From Nibricoccus aquaticus (GTDB lineage Bacteria; Verrucomicrobiota; Verrucomicrobiia; Opitutales; Opitutaceae), in NCBI RefSeq assembly GCF_002310495.1, contig NZ_CP023344.1, forward strand, positions 62,001-126,000: a stretch of DNA of 64,000 nucleotides, given 5' to 3'. Positions within the stretch are counted from its first letter, which is position 1, and each line of letters opens with the position of its first letter. Below, piece after piece: positions 18,471-38,954 of the stretch. The translations under genes and the position numbers were made by a program. The notes beneath the pieces were generated by a model that saw only the letters and a program-made list of their open reading frames with translations, had not been told where the DNA came from and did no database searches.

Positions 18471-18547
18471 TGGTGCAACCGTAGGGAGTCGAACCCCAAA
18501 CCTTCTGATTCGTAGTCAGACGCTCTATCCAGTTGAGCTACGGCTGC
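18471..18547 (-). tRNA. tRNA-Arg (anticodon ACG), CCA encoded
   Basis: 77 nt on the minus strand. The acceptor stem GCAGCCG pairs with CGGTTGC (one G-U), the anticodon stem is TCTGA/TCAGA around the loop CTACGAA (anticodon ACG, normally edited to ICG), the T-arm contains GGTTCGACTCC, and a genomic CCA ends at 18471. It reads CGU/CGC/CGA arginine codons. Upstream sequence (18548-18658) showed no convincing promoter boxes. Confidence 0.95.
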
Positions 18548-28053: not shown

Positions 28054-29259
28054 ATGAACATCGCCCAGTTTAAGAAGTCCGGTCACTGGCCCACGCTCGC
28101 CACATCGTTTCTCTATTTCGACGTCAGCTTCATGGTGTGGACGCTCCTCGGCGCACTCGGCGCGATGATCGCCCCCGATCTCAGCCTCACCGCCGACCAA
28201 AAATTTCTGATGGTCTCCACGCCCATCCTCGCCGGTGCCTTCCTCCGCATCGCCCTGAGCATGCTCGTCGATCGCATCGGCACCAAGAAGACCGGCATCA
28301 TCGCCCAGCTCATCGTTATGGCCGGCCTCTTCGTCGCTTGGCAGCACGGTATCCATTCTCTCAATCAGGCTCTGATCCTCGGCGGCATCCTCGGCGTCGC
28401 CGGAGCCAGCTTCGCCGTCGCCCTCCCCCAATCCGGCCGCTGGTACCCGCCCCACATGCAGGGCGTCGTCCTCGGTCTCGCCGGTGCGGGCAACGTCGGT
28501 GTCGTCATCGATCACCTCGCCGCCCCCCGCATCGCCGCCCACTGGGGATGGCAGTCCGTCTTCGGCGCCGCCCTCATCCCGCTCGCACTCGCCTTCATCC
28601 TCTACGTGATTTTCTCCAAGGAGCCTCCCGGCGAATTCAAAAAGAAAAAACTCTCCGACTACGCCAAACTCCTCAGCGAAAAGGACGCCCACTGGTTCTG
28701 CTTTTTCTACACGATCAGCTTCGGAGGCTTCGTCGGCCTCGCCACCGCCTTTGCCATCTACTTCAGCGATCAATTCGGCCTCAAGCCCGTCCACGCCGGC
28801 GAAATGGCCGCCTTCTGCACCTTGGTCGGCGCACTCGGGCGTCCGATGGGCGGCGCGCTCGCCGACAAACTCGGCGGCATCAAAGCCCTCGGCGTCTTCT
28901 ACAGCGTCGCCATCGTCTCCCTCATCGTCGCCGCCCTCGCGCACAATCTCTGGATCTGCGGCGCCGCCTTCTTCGTCGCCTCCGGTGCCTTCGGCATGTG
29001 CAACGGATCCGTTTTTCAACTACTCCCGCAGCGCTTCGCTAAAGACATCTCCGTCATGACCGGCCTCGTCGGCTGCGGCGGCGGCATCGGCGGCTTCCTC
29101 CTCGGCCGCATGTTCGGCCTCTCCAAACAGCACACAGGCAACTACACCGTCGGCATCCTCCTCTTCGCCGGCCTCTGCGTCATCGCCCTCATCGGCCTGC
29201 GCCTCGTGAAAACCCGCTGGCGCACCACTTGGGGCGCCACCGCCGCCGCCCGCATCTAA
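28054..29259 (+). CDS. Nitrate/nitrite MFS transporter (NarK/NasA type)
   Basis: A 401-residue, 12-helix inner-membrane transporter. The nitrate-signature motif is visible as 'GLAGAGNVGVVIDHLAAPRIA' (about residues 140-160). A second one, 'GCGGGIGGFLLG', lies near residue 345. 'ILAGAFLRIALSMLVDRIGTKKTG' is the MFS loop motif of the family. With nrtABCD this gives two independent nitrate uptake routes in one locus. The first gene after the 447-bp gap and terminator, it probably starts a second transcript through the reductase genes. There is no Shine-Dalgarno before the ATG. Confidence 0.9.
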   Translation: MNIAQFKKSGHWPTLATSFLYFDVSFMVWTLLGALGAMIAPDLSLTADQKFLMVSTPILAGAFLRIALSMLVDRIGTKKTGIIAQLIVMAGLFVAWQHGIHSLNQALILGGILGVAGASFAVALPQSGRWYPPHMQGVVLGLAGAGNVGVVIDHLAAPRIAAHWGWQSVFGAALIPLALAFILYVIFSKEPPGEFKKKKLSDYAKLLSEKDAHWFCFFYTISFGGFVGLATAFAIYFSDQFGLKPVHAGEMAAFCTLVGALGRPMGGALADKLGGIKALGVFYSVAIVSLIVAALAHNLWICGAAFFVASGAFGMCNGSVFQLLPQRFAKDISVMTGLVGCGGGIGGFLLGRMFGLSKQHTGNYTVGILLFAGLCVIALIGLRLVKTRWRTTWGATAAARI

Positions 29260-29284
29260 CTGCGTCCGCGAATCTCTTCTCGAT

Positions 29285-29313
29285 GTAGGCGGGGTGCCCT
29301 CACCCCGCTTTTT
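29285..29313 (+). repeat. REP-like palindrome that may double as a terminator
   Basis: GTAG (29285-29288), perfect GCGGGGTG/CACCCCGC stem with CCCT loop (29289-29308), then TTTTT. Same stem as at 10643. The U-run makes it a plausible partial terminator between narK and the PP2C-kinase gene. Confidence 0.75.
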
Positions 29314-29360
29314 CGTCTCCAAATCCCGCCACTCCTCCGCGCTCACCCGCCCCGCCTCTC

Positions 29361-31130
29361 ATGCCGCAACCCGCGCTCGCCCACGCATCCACCGACCGCC
29401 ACGCTCACGCGGCAATGAAGGTTTTCCCCACCTCACACGGCGTCCCGCGTCACCCCACCGGCACCTCGCAAGACGCCTCCCGCGTGCTCGTCCGCGACGG
29501 CCGCGTCATCGCCGCCCTCGCTGACGGCGTCGGCTCCAGTCAGGAGGGCGGAGCCGCCGCTCAACGCGCCGTCGACATGATCGTCGATTACTACGTCGCC
29601 CGCCCCCAGGCTTGGACTCCCCGCCGCGCCCTCACCGACTTCGTCAGCCAGATCAACCGCATCTTCCACCAAGAATCCCAGCTCCGCCACGGCTCCTCCG
29701 AACTCCTCTGCACCCTCACCGTCGCCGTCATCGAAAACGGCCGCCTCTACGGCCTCAACATCGGTGACTCCCCCGCCTACCTCTGGCGCCGCGCCAAACT
29801 CACCCGCCTCTCCCAAAACCATGCCCTCTCCCAAAACGGCATGCAGCACGTCCTCACCCGCGCCGTCGGCCTCGAACCCACTGTCGAGCCGTGGTTCTTC
29901 GAAAACACCGTCGAGGATGGCGACATGCTGCTCCTCTGCTCCGACGGCGTCTCCAACGCCGTATCCGAAAACCAACTCGCCGAACTCCTCTCCCGCCGCA
30001 CCGCCGCCCGCAGCATCGTTTCCTCCGCCGCCGAGCGCATCGAAGAAAACTCCGATCTCCGCGACGACGCCACCGCCGTCGTCCTCGACATCGCCCAGCG
30101 CGGCTGGACCGGCGGCACCGGCGAACGCCCCCTCGAAGTCCTCCCCGCCCTCCGCCCCGGCGACATCATCGACAACTTCAAACTCCTCCGCCCTCTCCAG
30201 GACACCGCCCGCGTCTGGCTCGCCGAAAAACTCCCCGCCTCCGCCTCAGCCTCCGATCATTCAACTTTCAACCTTCAACCTTCAACCCACGCACCAAGCG
30301 CCACAGGCGCTCGGTGCGTGCTTAAATTCCCTCCCCTCGAAGCCCGCGACGAAGACGCCCGCCGTGACGGCTTCCTCCGCGAACTCTGGCAGGCCTCCCG
30401 CATCGACTCTCCCGACTTCATCCGCGCCACCATCCCCGCCGAGGGCTCCCTCCGCTACTACGTGATGGACTACGTCGAGGCGCCCACCCTTCGAGCACAC
30501 CTCGCCAACGGCTCTCTCCGCGTCGAGGAAACTGTCGAGCTCGCCCGCTTCCTCCTGCGCTCCGGCCAGTATCTGCTTTCCCGCGACCACGCCCACGGCG
30601 ACATCAAACCCGATAATATCCTCGTCCTCCGCGACGGCGAAAACCTCCGCTTCCTCCTCATCGACCTAGGCAGCGCCGCCGAGGTCTTCTCCGTCACCAA
30701 CCGCGCCGGCACCCCCAGCTACCTCGCTCCCGAACGCTTCCAAAACGCCCCGCTCTCCGAACGCACCGAGCTTTTCGCCATCGGCGTCACCCTCTACGAA
30801 TCCCTCGTCCGCACCTACCCCTACGGCGAGATCGAGCGCTTCCAGACTCCTCGCTTCGACACTTCTCCCAAACGCCTTACCCGCCTCAACACTGCCGTCC
30901 CGCCCTGGCTCGAATCCGTCATTTCCCGCTCCCTCGCCCCCGATCCCGACGACCGCTACCAAAACTTCTCCGAGATGGCCTACGACTTGGACCATCCAAA
31001 CGAGGTCACGCCGTTCTACGCAAAAAACACCGCCCTCCTGGATCGCGACCCCGTCCGCTTCTACAAGCTCCTCAGCCTCGCCCTCTTCCTGACGAACATC
31101 GCCCTTCTCTGGCACCGCCTCCGTCGCTGA
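29361..31130 (+). CDS. Bifunctional PP2C phosphatase - Ser/Thr protein kinase, membrane-anchored
   Basis: A 589-residue fusion. Residues about 20-250 are a PP2C phosphatase ('ADGVGSSQEGGAAAQRAV', 'GDSPAYLWR', 'LLLCSDGVSNAV', 'RDDATAVVLDIA'). Residues about 268-560 are a Hanks-type kinase with Lys in 'CVLKFPP', catalytic loop 'HGDIKPDN' (about 411-418), 'DLGSA' in place of DFG, and 'GTPSYLAPERF'. The glycine loop is poorly preserved. One hydrophobic helix ends the protein ('LLSLALFLTNIALLWHRL'). An in-frame ATG at 29415 is an alternative start. I recall such fusions beside nitrate transporters in several phyla, which suggests control of uptake by phosphorylation; the target is unknown. A heptamer array plus palindrome interrupts the kinase N-lobe. 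Confidence 0.88.
   Translation: MPQPALAHASTDRHAHAAMKVFPTSHGVPRHPTGTSQDASRVLVRDGRVIAALADGVGSSQEGGAAAQRAVDMIVDYYVARPQAWTPRRALTDFVSQINRIFHQESQLRHGSSELLCTLTVAVIENGRLYGLNIGDSPAYLWRRAKLTRLSQNHALSQNGMQHVLTRAVGLEPTVEPWFFENTVEDGDMLLLCSDGVSNAVSENQLAELLSRRTAARSIVSSAAERIEENSDLRDDATAVVLDIAQRGWTGGTGERPLEVLPALRPGDIIDNFKLLRPLQDTARVWLAEKLPASASASDHSTFNLQPSTHAPSATGARCVLKFPPLEARDEDARRDGFLRELWQASRIDSPDFIRATIPAEGSLRYYVMDYVEAPTLRAHLANGSLRVEETVELARFLLRSGQYLLSRDHAHGDIKPDNILVLRDGENLRFLLIDLGSAAEVFSVTNRAGTPSYLAPERFQNAPLSERTELFAIGVTLYESLVRTYPYGEIERFQTPRFDTSPKRLTRLNTAVPPWLESVISRSLAPDPDDRYQNFSEMAYDLDHPNEVTPFYAKNTALLDRDPVRFYKLLSLALFLTNIALLWHRLRR
30260..30320 (+). repeat. Intragenic heptamer array plus palindrome
   Basis: Four 7-bp units (TTCAACT, then TTCAACC three times, 30260-30287). 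They run directly into a 15-bp palindrome (30288-30302 with 30306-30320, one mismatch, loop ACA). It lies inside the kinase coding sequence, adding roughly residues 300-320, and keeps the frame open. Confidence 0.8.
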
Positions 31131-31226
31131 AAAACGATGAGCACTTCTCATCGTTACCCATAAAACTATTCAGCGCGTTGATTGATCACCGCCCCTCCGT
31201 GGCATCGCGGGTGCTAATTAGCGGGC

Positions 31227-33026
31227 GTGTCCGTCCCGACTGATCTCCTCGCCGCTCCCGCACCGTTCTCGCCCTCCCAAAAGGAGTACCTCCAGGGCTT
31301 CATGGCCGGCGTTTACGCGTCCGGCTCGATTCCCTTCGTCGGCACCCACGCCTCCGGCCAGCTCACCGCCACCCCCGGAGCCGCCACTTCCGGCAACCTC
31401 GCCGCGCCCGACGAAGAAACCGTCCACGGCACCCCGCTCGGCGATCTCTGCAAAGAAGAACGCTGGAAACACGACGAGAACCCGCTCGACGCTTGGGAAC
31501 GCCTCCTCAAGCACGCCGACGAAAACAAGTTCCCCGACGCGGAGAACATGTACCGTTTCAAAACCCACGGCCTCTTCTACGTCGCCCCCGCTCAGGACAG
31601 TTTCATGATCCGTCTGCGCGTCCCTGCCTGCGAGATGACCGCCACGCAGATGCACGGCCTCGCGGACATCGCCGCAGAGTTGGGCGGCGGATACGCCCAC
31701 ATCACCACCCGCGGCAACTTCCAGATCCGCGACTTCAAGCCCAAGGACATCGTCCGCCTCCTCACCTGGGTCCAGGACCTCGGCCTCACCTCCAAAGGCG
31801 CCGGCGCTGACAACATCCGCAACGTTACCGCCTCCCCCAACTCTGGCTTCGATCCCACCGAACTCCTCGACGTCCGCCCCTTCGCCAAAGGCCTCCACCA
31901 CTATATTCTCAACCACCGCGACATGTACGGCCTCCCGCGGAAATTCAACGTCGCCTTCGACAACGGCGGCTCCATCTCCGCCGCGGCCGACACCAACGAC
32001 ATCGGCTTCTTCGCCGTCCGCGTCACCGAGAAAACCCTCGCCGCTTCGCCCTCTCCTACGCGTGTCGAGCCCGGCATCTACTTCCGCGTCCACCTCGGCG
32101 GCATCACCGGCCACCAAGACTTCGCCCGCGACACCGGCCTGCTCATCAAGCCTTCCGAGGCCGTCGCCGTATCCGCGGCCATGATTCGCGTCTTCGCCGA
32201 GAACGGCAATCGCACCAACCGCAAGAAAGCCCGCCTCAAGTACGTCCTCGATAGCTGGGGCTTCGAAAAGTTCATCGCCGAAACCCAGAAGAAACTCGCC
32301 TTCCACCTCGGCCGCCTGCCGCTCGAAGCCTGCGAACCTCGCCAGCCCGTCGTGAAACACGGCTGGCTCGGCGTCGCAAAACAGTCCCAAAAAGGCCTCA
32401 ACTCCATCGGCGTCGGCATCCCCGTCGGCCGCATGTCGCCGAAGCAGATGCACGCCATCGCCGACCTCGCTACGAACTTCGGCAAAGGCGAAATCCGCCT
32501 CACCGTCTGGCAGAATCTCCTCATCCCTCACATCCCCGACGCCTTCGTCGAGTCGGTGAAACGCTCCGTCAGCCGCATGGGCTTCTTCACCGAAGCGGGT
32601 AGCATCGCCGCCGGCGTCATCGCGTGCACCGGCAGCCGCGGCTGCAAATACGCCGCCGCCGACACCAAGGCCCACGCCGTCGAGATCATCAAGAAACTCG
32701 ACGCGAAACTCCGCCTGGATTCTCCCGTCAACATCCACTTCACCGGTTGCCCCAACTCTTGCGCGCAACACTACGCTGGCGACATCGGTTTCGTCGGCTC
32801 GAAACTCCCCGACGGCGCCGAAGGCTACAACGTCGTCCTCGGCGGCGGCATGGACAACGAGCAAGGCGTCGCCCGCGAACTCTTCAAAGGCATCCGAGCC
32901 ACCGAAGTCCCCGCCCTCGTCGAAAAAATCCTCGTCACCTACAGCGGCAAAAAACAGCGCGGCGAAACCTTCGTCCAATGGTCCCGCCGCCACTCCATGA
33001 AAGAGCTCCAGGAGTTCCTCACCTGA
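31227..33026 (+). CDS. nirA: Siroheme-[4Fe-4S] nitrite reductase, NirA type
   Basis: A 599-residue enzyme reducing nitrite to ammonium with six electrons in the cytoplasm. The start is GTG. The duplicated nitrite/sulfite reductase ferredoxin-like and siroheme domains are complete. 'ITTRGNFQIRDFKPKDI' and 'RLTVWQNLLIPHIP' are the two substrate/siroheme half-domain motifs. Cluster ligands are Cys467, Cys473, Cys508 and Cys512 in 'CTGSRGCKYA' and 'FTGCPNSCAQHYAGDIGFVG'. Residues 13-32 ('PFSPSQKEYLQGFMAGVYAS') form an extra N-terminal peptide also found in the next gene's product. Context (nitrate reductase, transporters) favours nitrite over sulfite as substrate. Confidence 0.9.
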   Translation: MSVPTDLLAAPAPFSPSQKEYLQGFMAGVYASGSIPFVGTHASGQLTATPGAATSGNLAAPDEETVHGTPLGDLCKEERWKHDENPLDAWERLLKHADENKFPDAENMYRFKTHGLFYVAPAQDSFMIRLRVPACEMTATQMHGLADIAAELGGGYAHITTRGNFQIRDFKPKDIVRLLTWVQDLGLTSKGAGADNIRNVTASPNSGFDPTELLDVRPFAKGLHHYILNHRDMYGLPRKFNVAFDNGGSISAAADTNDIGFFAVRVTEKTLAASPSPTRVEPGIYFRVHLGGITGHQDFARDTGLLIKPSEAVAVSAAMIRVFAENGNRTNRKKARLKYVLDSWGFEKFIAETQKKLAFHLGRLPLEACEPRQPVVKHGWLGVAKQSQKGLNSIGVGIPVGRMSPKQMHAIADLATNFGKGEIRLTVWQNLLIPHIPDAFVESVKRSVSRMGFFTEAGSIAAGVIACTGSRGCKYAAADTKAHAVEIIKKLDAKLRLDSPVNIHFTGCPNSCAQHYAGDIGFVGSKLPDGAEGYNVVLGGGMDNEQGVARELFKGIRATEVPALVEKILVTYSGKKQRGETFVQWSRRHSMKELQEFLT

Positions 33027-33075
33027 TCGGGATCACAATCCTGTTAATTCTGTAATCCTGTCTAAAAAATTTTCG
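33027..33075. repeat. AATCCTGT-type leader repeat
   Basis: AATCCTGT, AATTCTGT and AATCCTGT occur in series (33040-33062), followed by CTAAAAAATTTT just before the next start codon. It occupies almost the whole gap between nirA and the flavoprotein gene. Confidence 0.5.
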
Positions 33076-34836
33076 ATGTCTTCGATTCCTCTTCTTCCCG
33101 AGACCGCTCCCTTCTCCCCCGAGCAACGCGCGTGGCTCAACGGCTTCTTCGCCGGCCTCTTCTCCCGCACCAATTCCTCCGCAGCGCCCGCCGTCGCCGC
33201 CGCAACCCTACAGCCGTTAACGATCCTCTTCGGTTCCCAAACCGGCACCTCCGAAAGCCTCGCTAAACGCGCCGCCAAGGAAGCCGGCAAACGCGGCTTC
33301 GCTCCCACCGTCGTGGACATGGCCCAGACCGACATCGCCAAACTCGCCGGCGAGAAAAACGCCCTCGTCATAACCAGCACCTATGGCGATGGCGAACCGC
33401 CAGACAACGCCAAGTCCCTCTGGGAAGCTCTCGCCAAAGACGACGCCCCCAGCCTCGCCAGCCTCAACTTCTCCGTCTGCGCCCTCGGTGACACCAACTA
33501 CGCCCAGTTCTGCCGCTGCGGCATCGACTTTGATCAACGCCTCGAAAAATGCGGCGCCAAACGCATCGCCGACCGCGCCGACTGCGACCTTGAGTACGAC
33601 GAAAAATTCACCAAGTGGCTCGACGCCTCCCTCAACGCCCTCGGTTCCGCCTCCGCCGCTCCATCACCTGCTGCGACCTCATCCGCTCCCGCTGCAGCCA
33701 CTGATTCCGACGCTCACGGCGAATCCCTCTACTCAAAGAAAAATCCTTACGCATCCCTCCTCCTCAGTTCGCGAAACCTTAACGCACCCGGCTCCGCGAA
33801 ATCCGTCCACCACATCGAATTCGATCTCGCCGGTTCCGGCCTCGCCTACGAAGCCGGTGACGCCCTCGGCGTCATTCCGCACAACTGCCCCGAACTCGTC
33901 GCCGACGTTCTCACTGCCCTCGGTTTCGACGGCGAAGAAGCCATCGCCAGTGCCGATGGTTCCACCACCTCGCTCCGGCAGGCGCTTACCACCACCTACG
34001 ATCTCGGCAAACCCTCGCCCGATCTCCTCGCCGCCGTCGCCAAAAAAACCACCGCTCCCGTCACCGCCGGTGCTAGCGTCGCCGCCACGTCACCGGCACC
34101 TCACCACGTCATCGACGTGCTCCACGCGTATCCAGACGCCAAGTTCACCGCCGCGGAGTTCGTCGCCCTGCTGAAAAAAATCCAGCCGCGCCTCTACTCG
34201 ATCTCCTCCAGTCCCAAAGCCCACCCCGGCCAGGTCCACCTGACCGTCGGCGCCGTCCGCTACGATCTCCACGGACGCCCGCGCAAAGGCGTCTGCTCCA
34301 CCTTCCTCGCCGACCGCGCCAAACCCGGCGACACCCGCATCGGTGTTTTCGTTCACAGCAACAAAGCCTTCCGTCCGCCCGCCAATCCCGACGCCCCCAT
34401 GATCATGGTCGGCCCCGGCACCGGCATCGCCCCCTTCCGCGCCTTCCTCGAAGAACGCATGGCTTCCGGCGCCAAAGGCAAAAACTGGCTCTTCTTCGGC
34501 GACCAAAAAGCCTCCACTGATTTCCTCTATCAGGACGAACTTACCGCCCTCCAGAAATCCGGTGTCCTCACCCGCCTCGACACCGCCTTCTCCCGCGACC
34601 AGCAGGAAAAAATCTACGTCCAAAACCGGATGCTCGAAGCCGCCGCCGAACTCTTCGCCTGGCTCGAAGCCGGTGGACACTTCTACGTCTGCGGCGACGC
34701 CTCCCGCATGGCCAAGGACGTCGACGCCGCCCTCCACAAAGTCGTCGAACTCGCCGGCAAAAAAACCCCCGAGCAAGCCGCCGCCTATATCCAAAATCTC
34801 AAGACCACCAAACGCTACGCCCGCGACGTGTATTAA
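33076..34836 (+). CDS. CysJ-like diflavin reductase, probable electron donor to NirA
   Basis: A 586-residue FMN/FAD/NADPH reductase. Flavodoxin domain about 48-190 ('FGSQTGTSESLAKRAAKEAG', 'TSTYGDGEPPDNAKSLW', 'ALGDTNYAQFCRCG'). FAD domain has 'RLYSISSSPKAHPGQVHLTV' and 'KGVCSTFLAD'. NADPH domain has 'IMVGPGTGIAPFRAFLEER' and 'YVCGDASRMAKDV', and the usual end 'KRYARDVY'. It is annotated as sulfite reductase flavoprotein in most databases, but placed between nirA and the nitrate-reductase genes it more likely supplies electrons to nitrite reduction. Residues 12-30 ('PFSPEQRAWLNGFFAGLFS') match the N-terminal peptide of NirA. A REP-like palindrome follows 1 bp after the stop. Confidence 0.88.
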   Translation: MSSIPLLPETAPFSPEQRAWLNGFFAGLFSRTNSSAAPAVAAATLQPLTILFGSQTGTSESLAKRAAKEAGKRGFAPTVVDMAQTDIAKLAGEKNALVITSTYGDGEPPDNAKSLWEALAKDDAPSLASLNFSVCALGDTNYAQFCRCGIDFDQRLEKCGAKRIADRADCDLEYDEKFTKWLDASLNALGSASAAPSPAATSSAPAAATDSDAHGESLYSKKNPYASLLLSSRNLNAPGSAKSVHHIEFDLAGSGLAYEAGDALGVIPHNCPELVADVLTALGFDGEEAIASADGSTTSLRQALTTTYDLGKPSPDLLAAVAKKTTAPVTAGASVAATSPAPHHVIDVLHAYPDAKFTAAEFVALLKKIQPRLYSISSSPKAHPGQVHLTVGAVRYDLHGRPRKGVCSTFLADRAKPGDTRIGVFVHSNKAFRPPANPDAPMIMVGPGTGIAPFRAFLEERMASGAKGKNWLFFGDQKASTDFLYQDELTALQKSGVLTRLDTAFSRDQQEKIYVQNRMLEAAAELFAWLEAGGHFYVCGDASRMAKDVDAALHKVVELAGKKTPEQAAAYIQNLKTTKRYARDVY

Positions 34837-34837
34837 G

Positions 34838-34863
34838 GTAGGGCGGGTTGGCCCTAACCCGCC
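34838..34863 (+). repeat. REP-like palindrome, GTAG foot
   Basis: GTAG (34838-34841), perfect stem GGCGGGTT (34842-34849) and AACCCGCC (34856-34863), loop GGCCCT. Starts 1 bp after the flavoprotein stop codon, within the operon. Confidence 0.75.
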
Positions 34864-34928
34864 GCTTCGCCACCGCACACCAGCACGCACCACCTCCCAT
34901 TCATCACCGCCAACGCCTGCGCTCCGAC

Positions 34929-34949
34929 CTACTCGCTACCCGCTACTTC
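34929..34949 (+). repeat. Degenerate 7-bp tandem array upstream of the Fe-S/anchor gene
   Basis: CTACTCG, CTACCCG, CTACTTC. It ends 7 bp before the TTG start codon of the next gene, where a ribosome site would be expected. The same unit recurs inside that gene. Confidence 0.6.
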
Positions 34950-34956
34950 CGCCCCC

Positions 34957-36645
34957 TTGCCCGCTCCCAAACAAGATCCCGTCCGCACGCTGATCGACGA
35001 ACTCCTCGCCGAACAGCAGCGCCTGCAAACGCCCGTCGCCCGCTTCTCCGAAGCCCACGACCGCGGTGCCTCGCCCGCGCTGGAGCCGCTCTATCGCGAC
35101 CTCATCCCGCTTTCGAAACCCGGCCCCGGCGAACAATACGCCTTCGAGGTCGATCTCGATTCCTGCACCGGCTGCAAAGCCTGCGTCGCCGGCTGTCACT
35201 CGCTCAACGGTCTCGACGACGAAGAAACCTGGCGCGACGTCGGCATGTTGGTTGGCGGCACGCGCAATCACCCCTTTCAACAAACCGTCACCAGTGCCTG
35301 CCACCACTGCGCCGATCCCGGCTGCCTCAACGGCTGCCCCGTTCTCGCCTATGAAAAAGACCCCGTCACCGGCATCGTCCGCCACCTCGATGACCAATGC
35401 ATCGGCTGCCAGTACTGCATTCTCAAATGCCCTTACGACGTTCCAAAATACAATGATCGCCTTGGCATCGTCCGTAAGTGCGACATGTGCCACAGCCGCC
35501 TCGCCGTCGGCGAAGCGCCCGCCTGCGTCCAGGCCTGCCCAACCCAGGCCATCAAGATCGTAACCGTCACGACTCATCTCAACGGCCAGCCCGCGCTCGA
35601 CACCACCGCCTTCCTCCCCGGCGCTCCAGCTCCTGAATACACGCAACCCACCACGCGCTACACCTCGAGCAAACCGCTCCCGGCCGAGATCATCGCCGCC
35701 GACGCCGCCACACTCCGTCCGCAACACCCGCACTGGCCGCTCGTCTTCATGCTCACGCTGATGCCCATGGCCGTCGGCTGCTTCACCGTCGCGGCCTGCG
35801 CCGACCTCCTCGCTCCTCGCTACCCGTTACTCGCTAATCTTCCGGCCTCCGCCCCCACAACGCTCGCGCTCACCGGCTGGCTCGCCGGAGCCGCCGGACT
35901 CTTCGCGAGCGTCTTCCACCTCGGCCAACCCCTCCGCGCTTGGCGCGTCTTCCTCGGCCTCCGCAAATCCTGGCTCTCCCGCGAAGCCGTCATCTTCGGC
36001 CCCTGGTTCGGCCTCGCCACCGCCACCGCAGCCGTCCCGCTCGCCTCGCAGCTCGGCCTCTTCTCTGGGAGCGCCGACGTCCCCGTCGGCTCCGTGTCTT
36101 CCGCGCTGGCCTCCGCCTACTCGCTACTCGCTGCCCACTACTCGCTACTGACGCTCGCCACCGCGAGCGTGGGCCTCCTCGGCCTCTTCTGCTCCTCAAT
36201 GATCTACATCGACACCCAACGCCACCTCTGGCGCGCCGCCCAAACCATCCCCCGCTTCTTCGGCTCCGGCGCCGTCCTCGGTTTCGCCATCCTCTTCGCC
36301 GCCGCGCCCACGCTACCGTACTTCTTCGCCTTGCTCGGCTCCGTCCTCTTCAAACTCGCCATCGAAGCCCGTGAACTCCGCCCGCTCGACTCCGACGACG
36401 ACACACCTACCGCCTCCTTTAAGACCGCCCAAATGCTCACCGGCCCCCTCCGCCTCCCGCACAATCTCCGCGTCACCTCCGCCCTCCTCGCCTGCATCCT
36501 CGCCTTCGCCCTCACGCGTATTTCCGCGCCTTCGCTCCTCGCCTGGACAATCCCCGCCCTCCTCCTCGCCAGCGAACTCACCGAGCGTTACCTCTACTTC
36601 CGCGCCGTCGTCGCCCCCAAAATGCCCGGCGTCGTCTCCAAATAA
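34957..36645 (+). CDS. Fused 4x[4Fe-4S] ferredoxin - DmsC-like membrane anchor
   Basis: 562 residues. Residues about 60-200 carry sixteen cysteines in the DmsB/NrfC pattern (70/73/76/80, 115/118/123/127, 148/151/154/158, 175/178/190/194), enough for four cubane clusters. The remainder (about 255-560) has around eight hydrophobic helices resembling the DMSO-reductase anchor DmsC, which takes electrons from menaquinol. In other molybdoenzymes the two parts are separate proteins. It directly precedes the nitrate reductase gene, so I infer it feeds quinol electrons to it on the cytoplasmic face. The start is TTG without a ribosome site. Two heptamer arrays lie inside the anchor part (35806-35840, 36117-36151). 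Confidence 0.85.
   Translation: MPAPKQDPVRTLIDELLAEQQRLQTPVARFSEAHDRGASPALEPLYRDLIPLSKPGPGEQYAFEVDLDSCTGCKACVAGCHSLNGLDDEETWRDVGMLVGGTRNHPFQQTVTSACHHCADPGCLNGCPVLAYEKDPVTGIVRHLDDQCIGCQYCILKCPYDVPKYNDRLGIVRKCDMCHSRLAVGEAPACVQACPTQAIKIVTVTTHLNGQPALDTTAFLPGAPAPEYTQPTTRYTSSKPLPAEIIAADAATLRPQHPHWPLVFMLTLMPMAVGCFTVAACADLLAPRYPLLANLPASAPTTLALTGWLAGAAGLFASVFHLGQPLRAWRVFLGLRKSWLSREAVIFGPWFGLATATAAVPLASQLGLFSGSADVPVGSVSSALASAYSLLAAHYSLLTLATASVGLLGLFCSSMIYIDTQRHLWRAAQTIPRFFGSGAVLGFAILFAAAPTLPYFFALLGSVLFKLAIEARELRPLDSDDDTPTASFKTAQMLTGPLRLPHNLRVTSALLACILAFALTRISAPSLLAWTIPALLLASELTERYLYFRAVVAPKMPGVVSK
35806..35840 (+). repeat. Intragenic degenerate 7-bp tandem array
   Basis: CTCCTCG, CTCCTCG, CTACCCG, TTACTCG, CTAATCT: five units within the anchor domain of the Fe-S/anchor fusion, encoding a Leu/Pro-rich loop. 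Confidence 0.65.
36067..36151 (+). repeat. Intragenic palindrome plus 7-bp tandem array
   Basis: GGGAGC, then stem GCCGACG (36073-36079) and CGTCGGC (36084-36090) with loop TCCC. 26 bp further come CTACTCG, CTACTCG, CTGCCCA, CTACTCG, CTACTGA (36117-36151). All of it lies within the anchor coding sequence. Confidence 0.7.
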
Positions 36646-36707
36646 TTTCTCCTCCGAAACTCTGCGCACTCCGCGATCTCTGCGGTTAAATTTTCCGACA
36701 TTTCGCC
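36646..36707. repeat. CTCTGCG-type leader repeat
   Basis: The gap before the nitrate reductase gene holds ACTCTGCGC, ACTCCGCG and ATCTCTGCGGTTAAAT in series (36660-36692), a style of intergenic repeat distinct from the REP palindromes. Confidence 0.4.
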
Positions 36708-38954
36708 ATGATCCCCCAACTCGAAGACCTGCTCCACGCCCGCCAGGGCCCGATGACCAGCGAGCTCGTTCTTCGCCCCGGCGACTTCGGACTCGGCCGC
36801 ATCCCCGCCCGCCTCAAGCCCGCCGCCACGACCGACATGGTCTGCGGCTTCTGCAGCACCGGCTGCTCCCTCCGCGTCCATCTCAACGAGCGCGGCCAGG
36901 CCATCAACCTCACCACCAACCCGCACTACTCCGTCAACCAGGGCATGGCCTGCCCCAAAGGCTGGGAAGCGCTCACCCCGCTCTCCGCCCCCGACCGCGT
37001 CACCACGCCACTGTTACGCAACCCAGCCACCGGCAATCTCGAGCCCGTCGACTGGCCCACCGCCCTCGCCGCCTTCGTCAAAAACTTCAAAGGCATCCAG
37101 GAGCGCCACGGCAAAACTTCTCTCTCGTTCCTCAGCACCGGCCAGATCGTCATGGAGGAAATGGCCCTCCTCGGCGCCCTCGCGAAATTCGGCATGGGCA
37201 TGACCGACGTCGACTCCAACACGCGCCAGTGCATGGCCACCTCCCACGTCGCCTACAAACAATCCTTCGGCTTCGACGCCCCTCCCTTCACGTACAAAGA
37301 TTTCGAAGAGAGCGACGCCCTCATTTTCATCGGCGCCAATCCCTGCATCGCCCACCCGATCATGTGGCAGCGCGTGATGATGAACAAACACAACCCCGAC
37401 ATCGTTGTCATCGACCCGCGCCGCACCGAGACCGCGATGGCCGCCACACTCCACGTGCCGCTTCTCCCCAAAAGCGACCTAGTCCTCCTCTACGGCCTCG
37501 CGAACCTGCTCATCGAACGCGGAGCCATCAAACAAGACTTCATCGACGCCCACACCTCTAGCTTCGCTGACTTCGCCTCCTTCCTTCGCGAGTTCACACT
37601 CGACCGCACCGCCCGCGAAACCGGCCTGCCTGCCGAAACCCTCCACCGCCTCGTCGACATCATCGCCACCCGCGAGCGCGTTTCCCTCTGGTGGACCATG
37701 GGCGTCAACCAGGGCCACGAATCCACCCGCACCGCCCAGGCCATCATAAATCTCGCGCTGATGACCGGCAACATCGGCCGCCCCGGCACCGGCGCCAACT
37801 CCATCACCGGCCAGTGCAACGCCATGGGCTCCCGCCTCTTTGGCAACGCCTCGTCACTCCTCGGCGGATACGACTTCGCCAAAGCCGAACACCGCTCCCA
37901 CGTCGCGAGCATCCTCGGCATCGATCCCGCCCTCATCCCCGACCGCGCCAGCCTCGCCTACGATCAGATTCTCGACGGCATCGACAAGGGCTCCATCCGC
38001 GGCCTCTGGGTCATCGCCACCAACACCGCTCACTCCTGGATCAACCAGAAGACCTTCCCCGCCATCCGCGAGAAACTCGAATTCCTCGTCGTGCAGGACA
38101 TGTACGCCACGACCGAGACCGCCCGCATGGCCGACCTCGTGCTGCCCGCCGCCGGTTGGGGCGAAAAAGACGGCATCCTCATCAACTCCGAACGCCGCCT
38201 CGGCATCGTGAAAAAAGTCTCCCGCGCCCCCGGCCAGGCGCTCAGCGATTTCGCCATCTTCAAACTCGTCGCCGACGCCTGGGGCTGCGGCCACCTCTTC
38301 GCGAAATGGTCCTCGCCCGAAGCCGCCTTCCAAATCCTCAAAGAACTCTCCCGCCGCCAGCCCTGCGAATTCACCGGCATCAGCAGCTACGAACACATCG
38401 ACCGCTCCGGCGGCATCCAGTGGCCCTTCACCGATAAGGACGCCATCGCGCCCACGCCGATTCACGAGCGCACCAGCACCGCGCATCCCGAGCGCGAACG
38501 CCGCCTCTTTTCCGACGGCCAGTTCTTCACCCCCGACCGCCGCGCCAAATTCCTCTTCGATCAACCGCGCCCGATGCCCGAGCTTCCCGACGCTGACTAC
38601 CCGATGATTCTCCTAACCGGCCGAGGCTCCTCCGCGCAATGGCACACCGGCTCGCGCACCGACAAGAGCGACGTCCTCCGCAAACTCGCCCCCCGCGAAC
38701 TCTACGTGGAGATCAACCCGATCGACGCCGACCGCCTCCGCATCGCCAACAACGAACTCGTCCGCGTCCGCTCCCGTCGTGGAGAAGCGGATGCGCTCGC
38801 CCTCATCACGAGCACGGTGCAACCCGGCCAGATCTACCTGCCGATGCACTTCGACACCGTGAACCGCCTCACCTTCCCGGCCTTCGATCCCCACTCGCGC
38901 CAGCCCAGCTACAAAGCCTGCGCCGTCCGCGTCGAACGCATCAAAAAACGATAG
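36708..38954 (+). CDS. nasA: Assimilatory nitrate reductase, molybdopterin catalytic subunit
   Basis: A 748-residue bis-MGD oxidoreductase of the NasA/NarB/NapA group reducing nitrate to nitrite. [4Fe-4S] ligands are Cys46, Cys49, Cys53 and Cys82 ('CGFCSTGC', 'GMACPKGW'). The molybdenum ligand is Cys175 in '[19 protein letters not shown]'. Other cofactor motifs are '[49 protein letters not shown]' and '[19 protein letters not shown]'. The C-terminal cofactor domain reads '[20 protein letters not shown]'. There is no Tat signal, so it is cytoplasmic, and it lacks the C-terminal [2Fe-2S] extension of some NasA proteins. Last gene of the nitrate block; two REP-like palindromes follow. Confidence 0.92.

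Follow-up and report, generated by a model that had tools for sequence, protein, structure and literature searches.

A heptamer array and a hairpin in a PP2C-kinase gene

The DNA analysed here, hereafter the window, is a stretch of 64,000 nucleotides from the genome of Nibricoccus aquaticus (4.73 Mb, a single contig; G000:C1:62001-126000), and our subject is a short insertion in one of its genes, which encodes a PP2C phosphatase joined to a protein kinase. Inside this gene, four tandem heptamers run straight into a hairpin. The parts of the locus are:

29361..31130, + strand: host gene, PP2C phosphatase and protein kinase, 589 aa (open reading frame (ORF) with PP2C and Pkinase profile matches)
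30231..30259, + strand: leader of the insert, 29 nt (LPASASASD and the first base of the next codons), from the ortholog alignment, edges uncertain by about one codon
30260..30287, + strand: four heptamers, TTCAACT and three TTCAACC, from direct reading and Tandem Repeats Finder (TRF)
30288..30302, + strand: left hairpin arm CACGCACCAAGCGCC, of which the outer 12 nt (30288-30299) lie in the insert and GCC (30300-30302) aligns to native sequence
30306..30320, + strand: right hairpin arm GGCGCTCGGTGCGTG, native kinase codons (GARCV), from direct reading and the ortholog alignment

Read directly, TTCAACT at 30260-30266 is followed by three TTCAACC units up to 30287, and TRF assigns to this interval a period of 7 and 4.0 copies. 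The adjoining hairpin (30288-30320) has 15-bp arms with one mismatch and a 3-nt loop, ACA (30303-30305). It folds at -26.4 kcal/mol, compared with -9.66 (standard deviation 2.22) in 200 shuffles, none of which was as good (z -7.54). A C-rich strand coding for a Ser/Pro/Ala-rich linker might look periodic by accident, and the leader, like the surroundings of many arrays described below, is rich in these residues and in C. However, TTCAACCTTCAACC has five matches, at three places, in the whole 4.73-Mb genome and its reversed control has none; this contrast, the folding of the hairpin and the excess of lag-7 identity over shuffles (see below) make chance hardly credible.

A general repeat finder with default settings did not report the array site because of its seed and length rules. 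Rfam gave no match at the site, the sole match in the window being a tRNA (18474-18547). A repeated hairpin family was rejected, as the stem AGCGCCNNNGGCGCT occurs at three places and its reversed control at four. The heptamer itself has what we presume to be the look of an integron core or of Chi/KOPS (FtsK-orienting polar sequences).

An in-frame insertion in a kinase loop

The ORF is open throughout, with matches to PP2C (about residues 36-243) and then Pkinase (316-534). A preliminary description made from the letters had reported four heptamers leading into a palindrome with 15-bp arms within an intact coding sequence, and both are present as described. Residues K322, H412, D414, K416, N419, D435 and G437 are invariant across 19 aligned PP2C-kinase proteins, and the kinase core looks intact. 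Matches in the PDB include PppA, tPphA and PknB, and the best named relatives are metagenome-assembled genomes labelled Verrucomicrobia or Opitutaceae. In the predicted model (mean predicted local distance difference test score, pLDDT, 83.3), the array site lies between the strands 285-290 and 318-322, that is, in the kinase beta2-beta3 loop, in agreement with the position between VWLAEK and VLKFPP given earlier. Residues 295-315 score below 50, so that, judging from the model, the array sits in a low-confidence loop that can be disordered.

The spacing from VWLA to VLKFPP is 31 residues here and 8 in five distinct close orthologs with 53-59% identity (L018, L020, L021, L022 and L098; L099 is seemingly the same record as L020). 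Another ortholog, L019, has 17 residues between these positions. The insert thus amounts to 23 residues or 69 nt in frame, made of 29 nt of leader, 28 nt of array and 12 nt of left arm, with edges uncertain by about a codon. This agrees with the "about 20" added residues of the preliminary description, and the alignment with orthologs that it had proposed as a check places the absence of the insert at that very loop in all five. A lag-7 repeat at this place is missing from all 18 of the other PP2C-kinases in the alignment. The outer 12 nt of the left arm are likewise absent from the close orthologs; the right arm consists of ordinary kinase codons.

Arrays of the same word elsewhere in the genome

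The pattern YTCAACYYTCAACY with at most one mismatch matches the genome 97 times forward and 91 times in reverse, against 70 and 65 times for the reversed control; the latter is not an independent one, since reversing the pattern yields these heptamers again in rotated form. From the exact matches among those listed we took 36 loci seeded with two exact units. At no more than one mismatch per unit, 31 of these have four units, and 27 do so when two mismatches are allowed; locus 690006, with two units, is probably not of the array kind. With a seed of three exact units, all 25 arrays examined have exactly four. A simple gene finder placed 23 of the 25 in genes, all in the sense direction, and one between genes; it is crude, leaving one of these arrays, and 6 of 98 in relatives, unclear. 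All three codon phases are used among the 23 in-gene arrays (14, 5 and 4, from gene-finder distances). Because three heptamers make 21 nt, the three frames encode one peptide in rotated forms; the sense strand of the YTCAACY word is free of stops in all frames. Pfam identifies among the hosts hemF, mutS, an asparagine synthase, an AMP-binding enzyme (AMP-ligase), a DUF58 protein, a DEAD_2 helicase and a methyltransferase. The DEAD_2-type helicase gene (L092, 1510-4269) holds three CTCAACY arrays and an apparent TTCACC-type stretch.

The kinase array and 10 nt of its leader, from 30250, match the hemF array with 98% identity over 40 nt, which, at the level of sequence, points to copying between loci. 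We consider it fairly probable, with considerable room for doubt, that the kinase insert represents a dispersed short repeat, a block of about four heptamers that is copied about and tolerated in coding loops.

The arrays are not dense: in 464 kb of the genome, unselected for arrays apart from the window, the excess at lag 7 is modest (four clusters versus 0-3 at other lags). At first sight their direction is tied to the replichores; they actually follow gene direction. GC skew in this genome is strong, and in 20 sample stretches it ran from -0.28 to +0.03 up to 2.01 Mb and from +0.10 to +0.40 from 2.22 Mb onwards, with a sign change near 2.2 Mb.

Separately, near 19048 of L181 (2680001-2700000 of the same genome) about 11 AATGACC units are followed by about nine AGAAGCC units, beside a GGCGCGC-TGA-GCGCGCC hairpin. 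Four is therefore not the limit for every heptamer array here.

Copy number

The preliminary description had also proposed an on/off switch. A phase-variable contingency locus would gain or lose heptamers by slipped-strand mispairing, shift the frame, and lose the kinase and the C-terminal helix while sparing the phosphatase. The 7-bp unit, four near-identical copies in an intact gene and the place of the array ahead of the kinase core all suit this idea, and the arithmetic stands: one unit more or less shifts the frame. The switch itself finds no such agreement. Every one of the 25 arrays examined in this genome counts four units, including those in core enzymes such as hemF, the asparagine synthase and the AMP-ligase. 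Orthologous arrays that share a word also have four each, in mutS (this genome, G040 and G003) and in AMP-ligase (this genome and G042), and the one longer orthologous array, in the AMP-ligase of G003, exceeds the others by 21 nt and keeps the frame. Four 7-bp units are, moreover, a short tract for slippage. We regard a contingency locus as very improbable, though rare slippage is conceivable; the copy numbers seen in these sequences favour a block of four, and a copy-number switch is not supported.

Arrays in relatives

The 21-bp form of three YTCAACY units occurs in 23 of 115 genomes including this one, and 22 of the 23 belong to the same family. The 22 relatives yielded 98 distinct arrays, many from G003, with three units in 19, four in 67, five in 10 and six in 2. 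Genes contain 34 of these arrays, all in the sense direction, and 58 are intergenic. A same-strand gene lies downstream of 43 of the intergenic arrays, and in 26 of the 43 its start is 0-16 nt past the array. An inverted array lies 29-99 nt upstream of 22 of the 98 and downstream of two (random stretches, 1.7%); among the 25 arrays of our genome, none has an inverted partner within 130 nt. A second word, AAATCNA, is found in 16 of 67 genomes, our own not among them, and its 27 arrays comprise 2 with three units, 16 with four and 9 with five.

These placements bear on a possible function of the array as a recognition element, be it in translation, in the binding of RNA or DNA, or in DNA uptake; each genome would then have its own dialect, and coding copies would be spill-over that is tolerated or selected. 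The position ahead of starts, the inverted pairs and the sense orientation of every in-gene array by the gene finder (23 here, 34 in relatives) speak for it, as does the use in G029 of one word, AATCTCA, in hemF, mutS and AMP-ligase. However, the sense orientation is expected anyway because the other strand has TGA stops, several unrelated words occur within one genome, and Rfam has no match at the kinase site. We know of no effect of these arrays on any gene, and we judge a recognition element unlikely, though worth keeping in view.

One array in G042 (L206, 1500-1545) precedes a start and is followed by GAAACGC-ATG-GCGTTTC, a hairpin whose loop is the ATG.

Changing words at orthologous loops

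We compared array-bearing loops across orthologs, scoring lag-7 identity of at least 15/21; orthologous sequences are non-independent observations. In hemF, 8 of 30 sequences have lag 7 (L277 weakly) and no other lag appears; the same holds for metH loop 3, with 9 of 31. Lag 7 was found in 5 of 31 sequences at metH loop 1 (lags 6 and 9 once each), in 2 of 31 at metH loop 2 (lag 12 in two), in 10 of 21 at the first AMP-ligase loop (lag 12 in one), in 3 of 21 at the second (lag 12 in two, lag 6 in one), in 4 of 30 at the mutS loop (lag 9 in three) and in 1 of 19 at the kinase loop. Random places in the same genes, arrays included, gave 0.3-8.6%. The words differ at one and the same loop: those of hemF include TTCAACC, CTTGCCG, CTTGGAA, AAATCRA and AATCTCA, and metH loop 3 has about seven. 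Such dialects would follow from conversion among the array loci within a genome.

Extra length accompanies the arrays at the kinase loop, hemF and metH loops 2 and 3. Arrays do not always insert, however; that idea was ruled out by mutS and the first AMP-ligase loop, where array-free orthologs are about as long. The unchanged length there suggests that some arrays may have taken the place of existing sequence, or may be of long standing and have changed their word.

An ordinary minisatellite, in which a polymerase that slips preferentially by 7 nt makes arrays locally and afresh in unconstrained sequence, would account for different words at the same loop. It would also fit the 88 orthologue loci not selected for arrays, in which lag 7 dominates with 29 clusters (lag 14, 18; lag 6, 11; others, 0-8; shuffled lag 7, 0.2). 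A 7-nt slippage step has been proposed before, for TAACTGA repeats, in the accessible text of PMC4679880. Slippage alone sits poorly with one word at many loci of a genome and four units in 25 of 25, with the leader that kinase and hemF have in common besides the array, and with inverted partners that lie upstream of 22 of 98 relatives' arrays and downstream of two. We find local slippage distinctly improbable as the origin of the arrays.

Hairpins flush with the arrays

A hairpin of score at least 8 stands flush at the 3' side of 7 of the 36 loci of this genome, compared with 0.17% of 7200 random positions and 0 of 36 at the 5' side. Among the 25 three-unit-seeded arrays there are five: kinase, hemF, the DUF58 gene, AMP-ligase and asparagine synthase. 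In relatives, the 3' side has such a hairpin in 12 of 98 arrays at a score of at least 8 and in 13 at 7 or more (random, 1.14% of 9800; 5' side at 7 or more, 0 of 98). For arrays of any word at 107 orthologue loci, a hairpin adjoins either edge in 10 of 45 (control, 0.65% per side), and three of these ten are the mutS hairpin, which is native.

At two sites the left arm is absent from orthologs and therefore seems to have been copied, inverted, from the codons downstream. One is the kinase; the other is metH loop 2 of G042, where a 20-nt left arm is an inverted copy of RLVLATV codons and is absent from the other 30 sequences. In the hemF hairpins of this genome, G042 and G026 both arms differ. 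The claim that every flush hairpin is a fold-back copy was ruled out for mutS, is doubtful for AMP-ligase and was kept for the kinase and metH loop 2. Pre-existing hairpins as insertion targets were rejected in turn: the idea fits AMP-ligase and fails for the kinase and metH. The metH loop 2 site of another genome (L390, metH of G009) carries an insertion of two hairpins, whose arms measure 9 and 12 bp and whose loops measure 3 nt, and has no heptamers.

Origin and persistence of the insert

If the kinase insert is a copied block of a dispersed repeat, it may have arisen as follows. The block would stem from a different array locus in the same genome. As the copy was joined in, its new 3' end would have folded back on a native micro-hairpin, GCC-ACA-GGC, and the folded-back end would then have copied about 12 nt of downstream codons in inverted form. 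Such a fold-back would tie CACGCACCAAGC to the array, and this sequence would be expected to be missing from an array-free kinase gene of the same genus. The insert would persist for three reasons: its length is divisible by three, the heptamer strand is stop-free in every frame, and the loop need not be ordered. It is probably of no use to the kinase and probably does not switch it.

Several observations weigh against this account. The GTDB-220 search returned no same-genus kinase covering the insert (L100 starts beyond it), and no array-free same-genus site turned up. Copying between loci is drawn from one strong match, that of kinase and hemF. The equal length of mutS and of the first AMP-ligase loop with or without arrays does not suit a simple insertion, and a strict rule of four is contradicted by the 31 of 98 relatives' arrays that have 3, 5 or 6 units by the same criterion. 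As for the hairpins, most arrays have none (29 of 36 here, 85 of 98 in relatives), and at a score of at least 6 the relatives' 5' side has 4 of 98 and the 3' side 15. The AMP-ligase left-arm motif GTGAACAG is present in 5 of 21 sequences regardless of the array word, and both mutS arms encode residues also found in relatives; the hairpins of these two genes were counted in the enrichment, yet they are not new inverted copies.

A more active process is also conceivable: a DNA-writing activity of this bacterial family would append a 7-nt word about four times, from genome-specific templates, to a 3' end, which would then fold back on the gene beside it. Tolerated loops of core genes and pre-start sequence would in this way be rewritten again and again in the local dialect. 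Candidate writers would be a telomerase-like or other reverse transcriptase, or a template-switching polymerase. We regard such an activity as rather unlikely.

Relation to known repeats

The short tandemly repeated repetitive sequences (STRR) of cyanobacteria are heptameric. They are mentioned for Calothrix in PMC4692102, whose accessible text describes the heptameric repeats GGGAATC and GGGGAYT of Xanthomonas and Nostoc as over-represented intergenically and variable in length and sequence, and states that no detailed literature on heptameric repeats was available. The TAACTGA repeats of Beggiatoaceae and others come in sets of 2-6, mostly intergenic near start codons, and a role in translation regulation has been suggested (PMC4679880, accessible text). 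Our arrays resemble such repeats in the 7-nt unit, the many loci per genome, the genome-typical words and, in relatives, the position near starts. Unlike the TAACTGA sets, the 25 examined in this genome all have four units and lie mostly in genes (23 of 25), a point on which the described families differ; unlike described heptameric repeats, ours can have a flush hairpin, on one side only, and their words differ between orthologs at a given loop. We read the kinase array as a variant of heptameric short repeats: it lies in coding sequence, arrays of its kind nearly always number four units in this genome, the hairpin stands on one side, and the word changes between orthologs.

Likeness to other systems is partial. 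In-frame insertion at tolerated places of protein-coding genes recalls the Rickettsia palindromic elements, and the kinase shows this trait with its 69 nt. Those elements are longer palindromes of conserved sequence, in contrast to the present array, which has a heptamer block and a hairpin formed from the host's own codons. The inverted partner 29-99 nt upstream of 22 of 98 relatives' arrays resembles miniature inverted-repeat transposable elements (MITEs) and repetitive extragenic palindromic (REP)-type elements, but none of our 25 arrays has such terminal inverted repeats within 130 nt, the arrays are mostly single and we know of no transposase for them. Template-switch or fold-back mutations (quasi-palindromes) also yield an inverted copy of adjacent sequence; here it adjoins a repeat block, on one side only. 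Borg tandem repeats in ORFs, according to the accessible part of PMC9879509, have unit lengths divisible by three. Like our arrays, they arise independently within ORFs and give disordered stretches, as far as that text goes; in contrast, a unit of 7 keeps the frame only through the total length.

Our literature search, in which coverage of subscription journals was thin, found no paper on such heptamer arrays in Opitutaceae. Many bacterial genomes are reported to be over-rich in heptameric repeats, for which there is no agreed origin. Blocks of about four heptamers in orthologous enzyme loops, with words that differ between genera, offer natural before-and-after comparisons for the writing mechanism. 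The one-sided hairpin appears as a new inverted copy of the flank at two sites studied, and repeats turn over in frame inside genes such as hemF and metH. If loops are indeed rewritten, this would be a new source of protein-loop variation.

Other features of the window

Two further period-7 arrays lie in one ORF with 4Fe-4S and DmsC domains:

35806..35839, + strand: degenerate array (CTCCTCG CTCCTCG CTACCCG TTACTCG), of the same kind with another word
36117..36149, + strand: second array, CTACTCG type, 4.7 copies

The ORFs around the kinase gene (28054-38954) perhaps form a nitrate-assimilation cluster, as their translations read as what we take to be a nitrate transporter, a nitrite/sulfite reductase, a flavoprotein reductase and a molybdopterin oxidoreductase.
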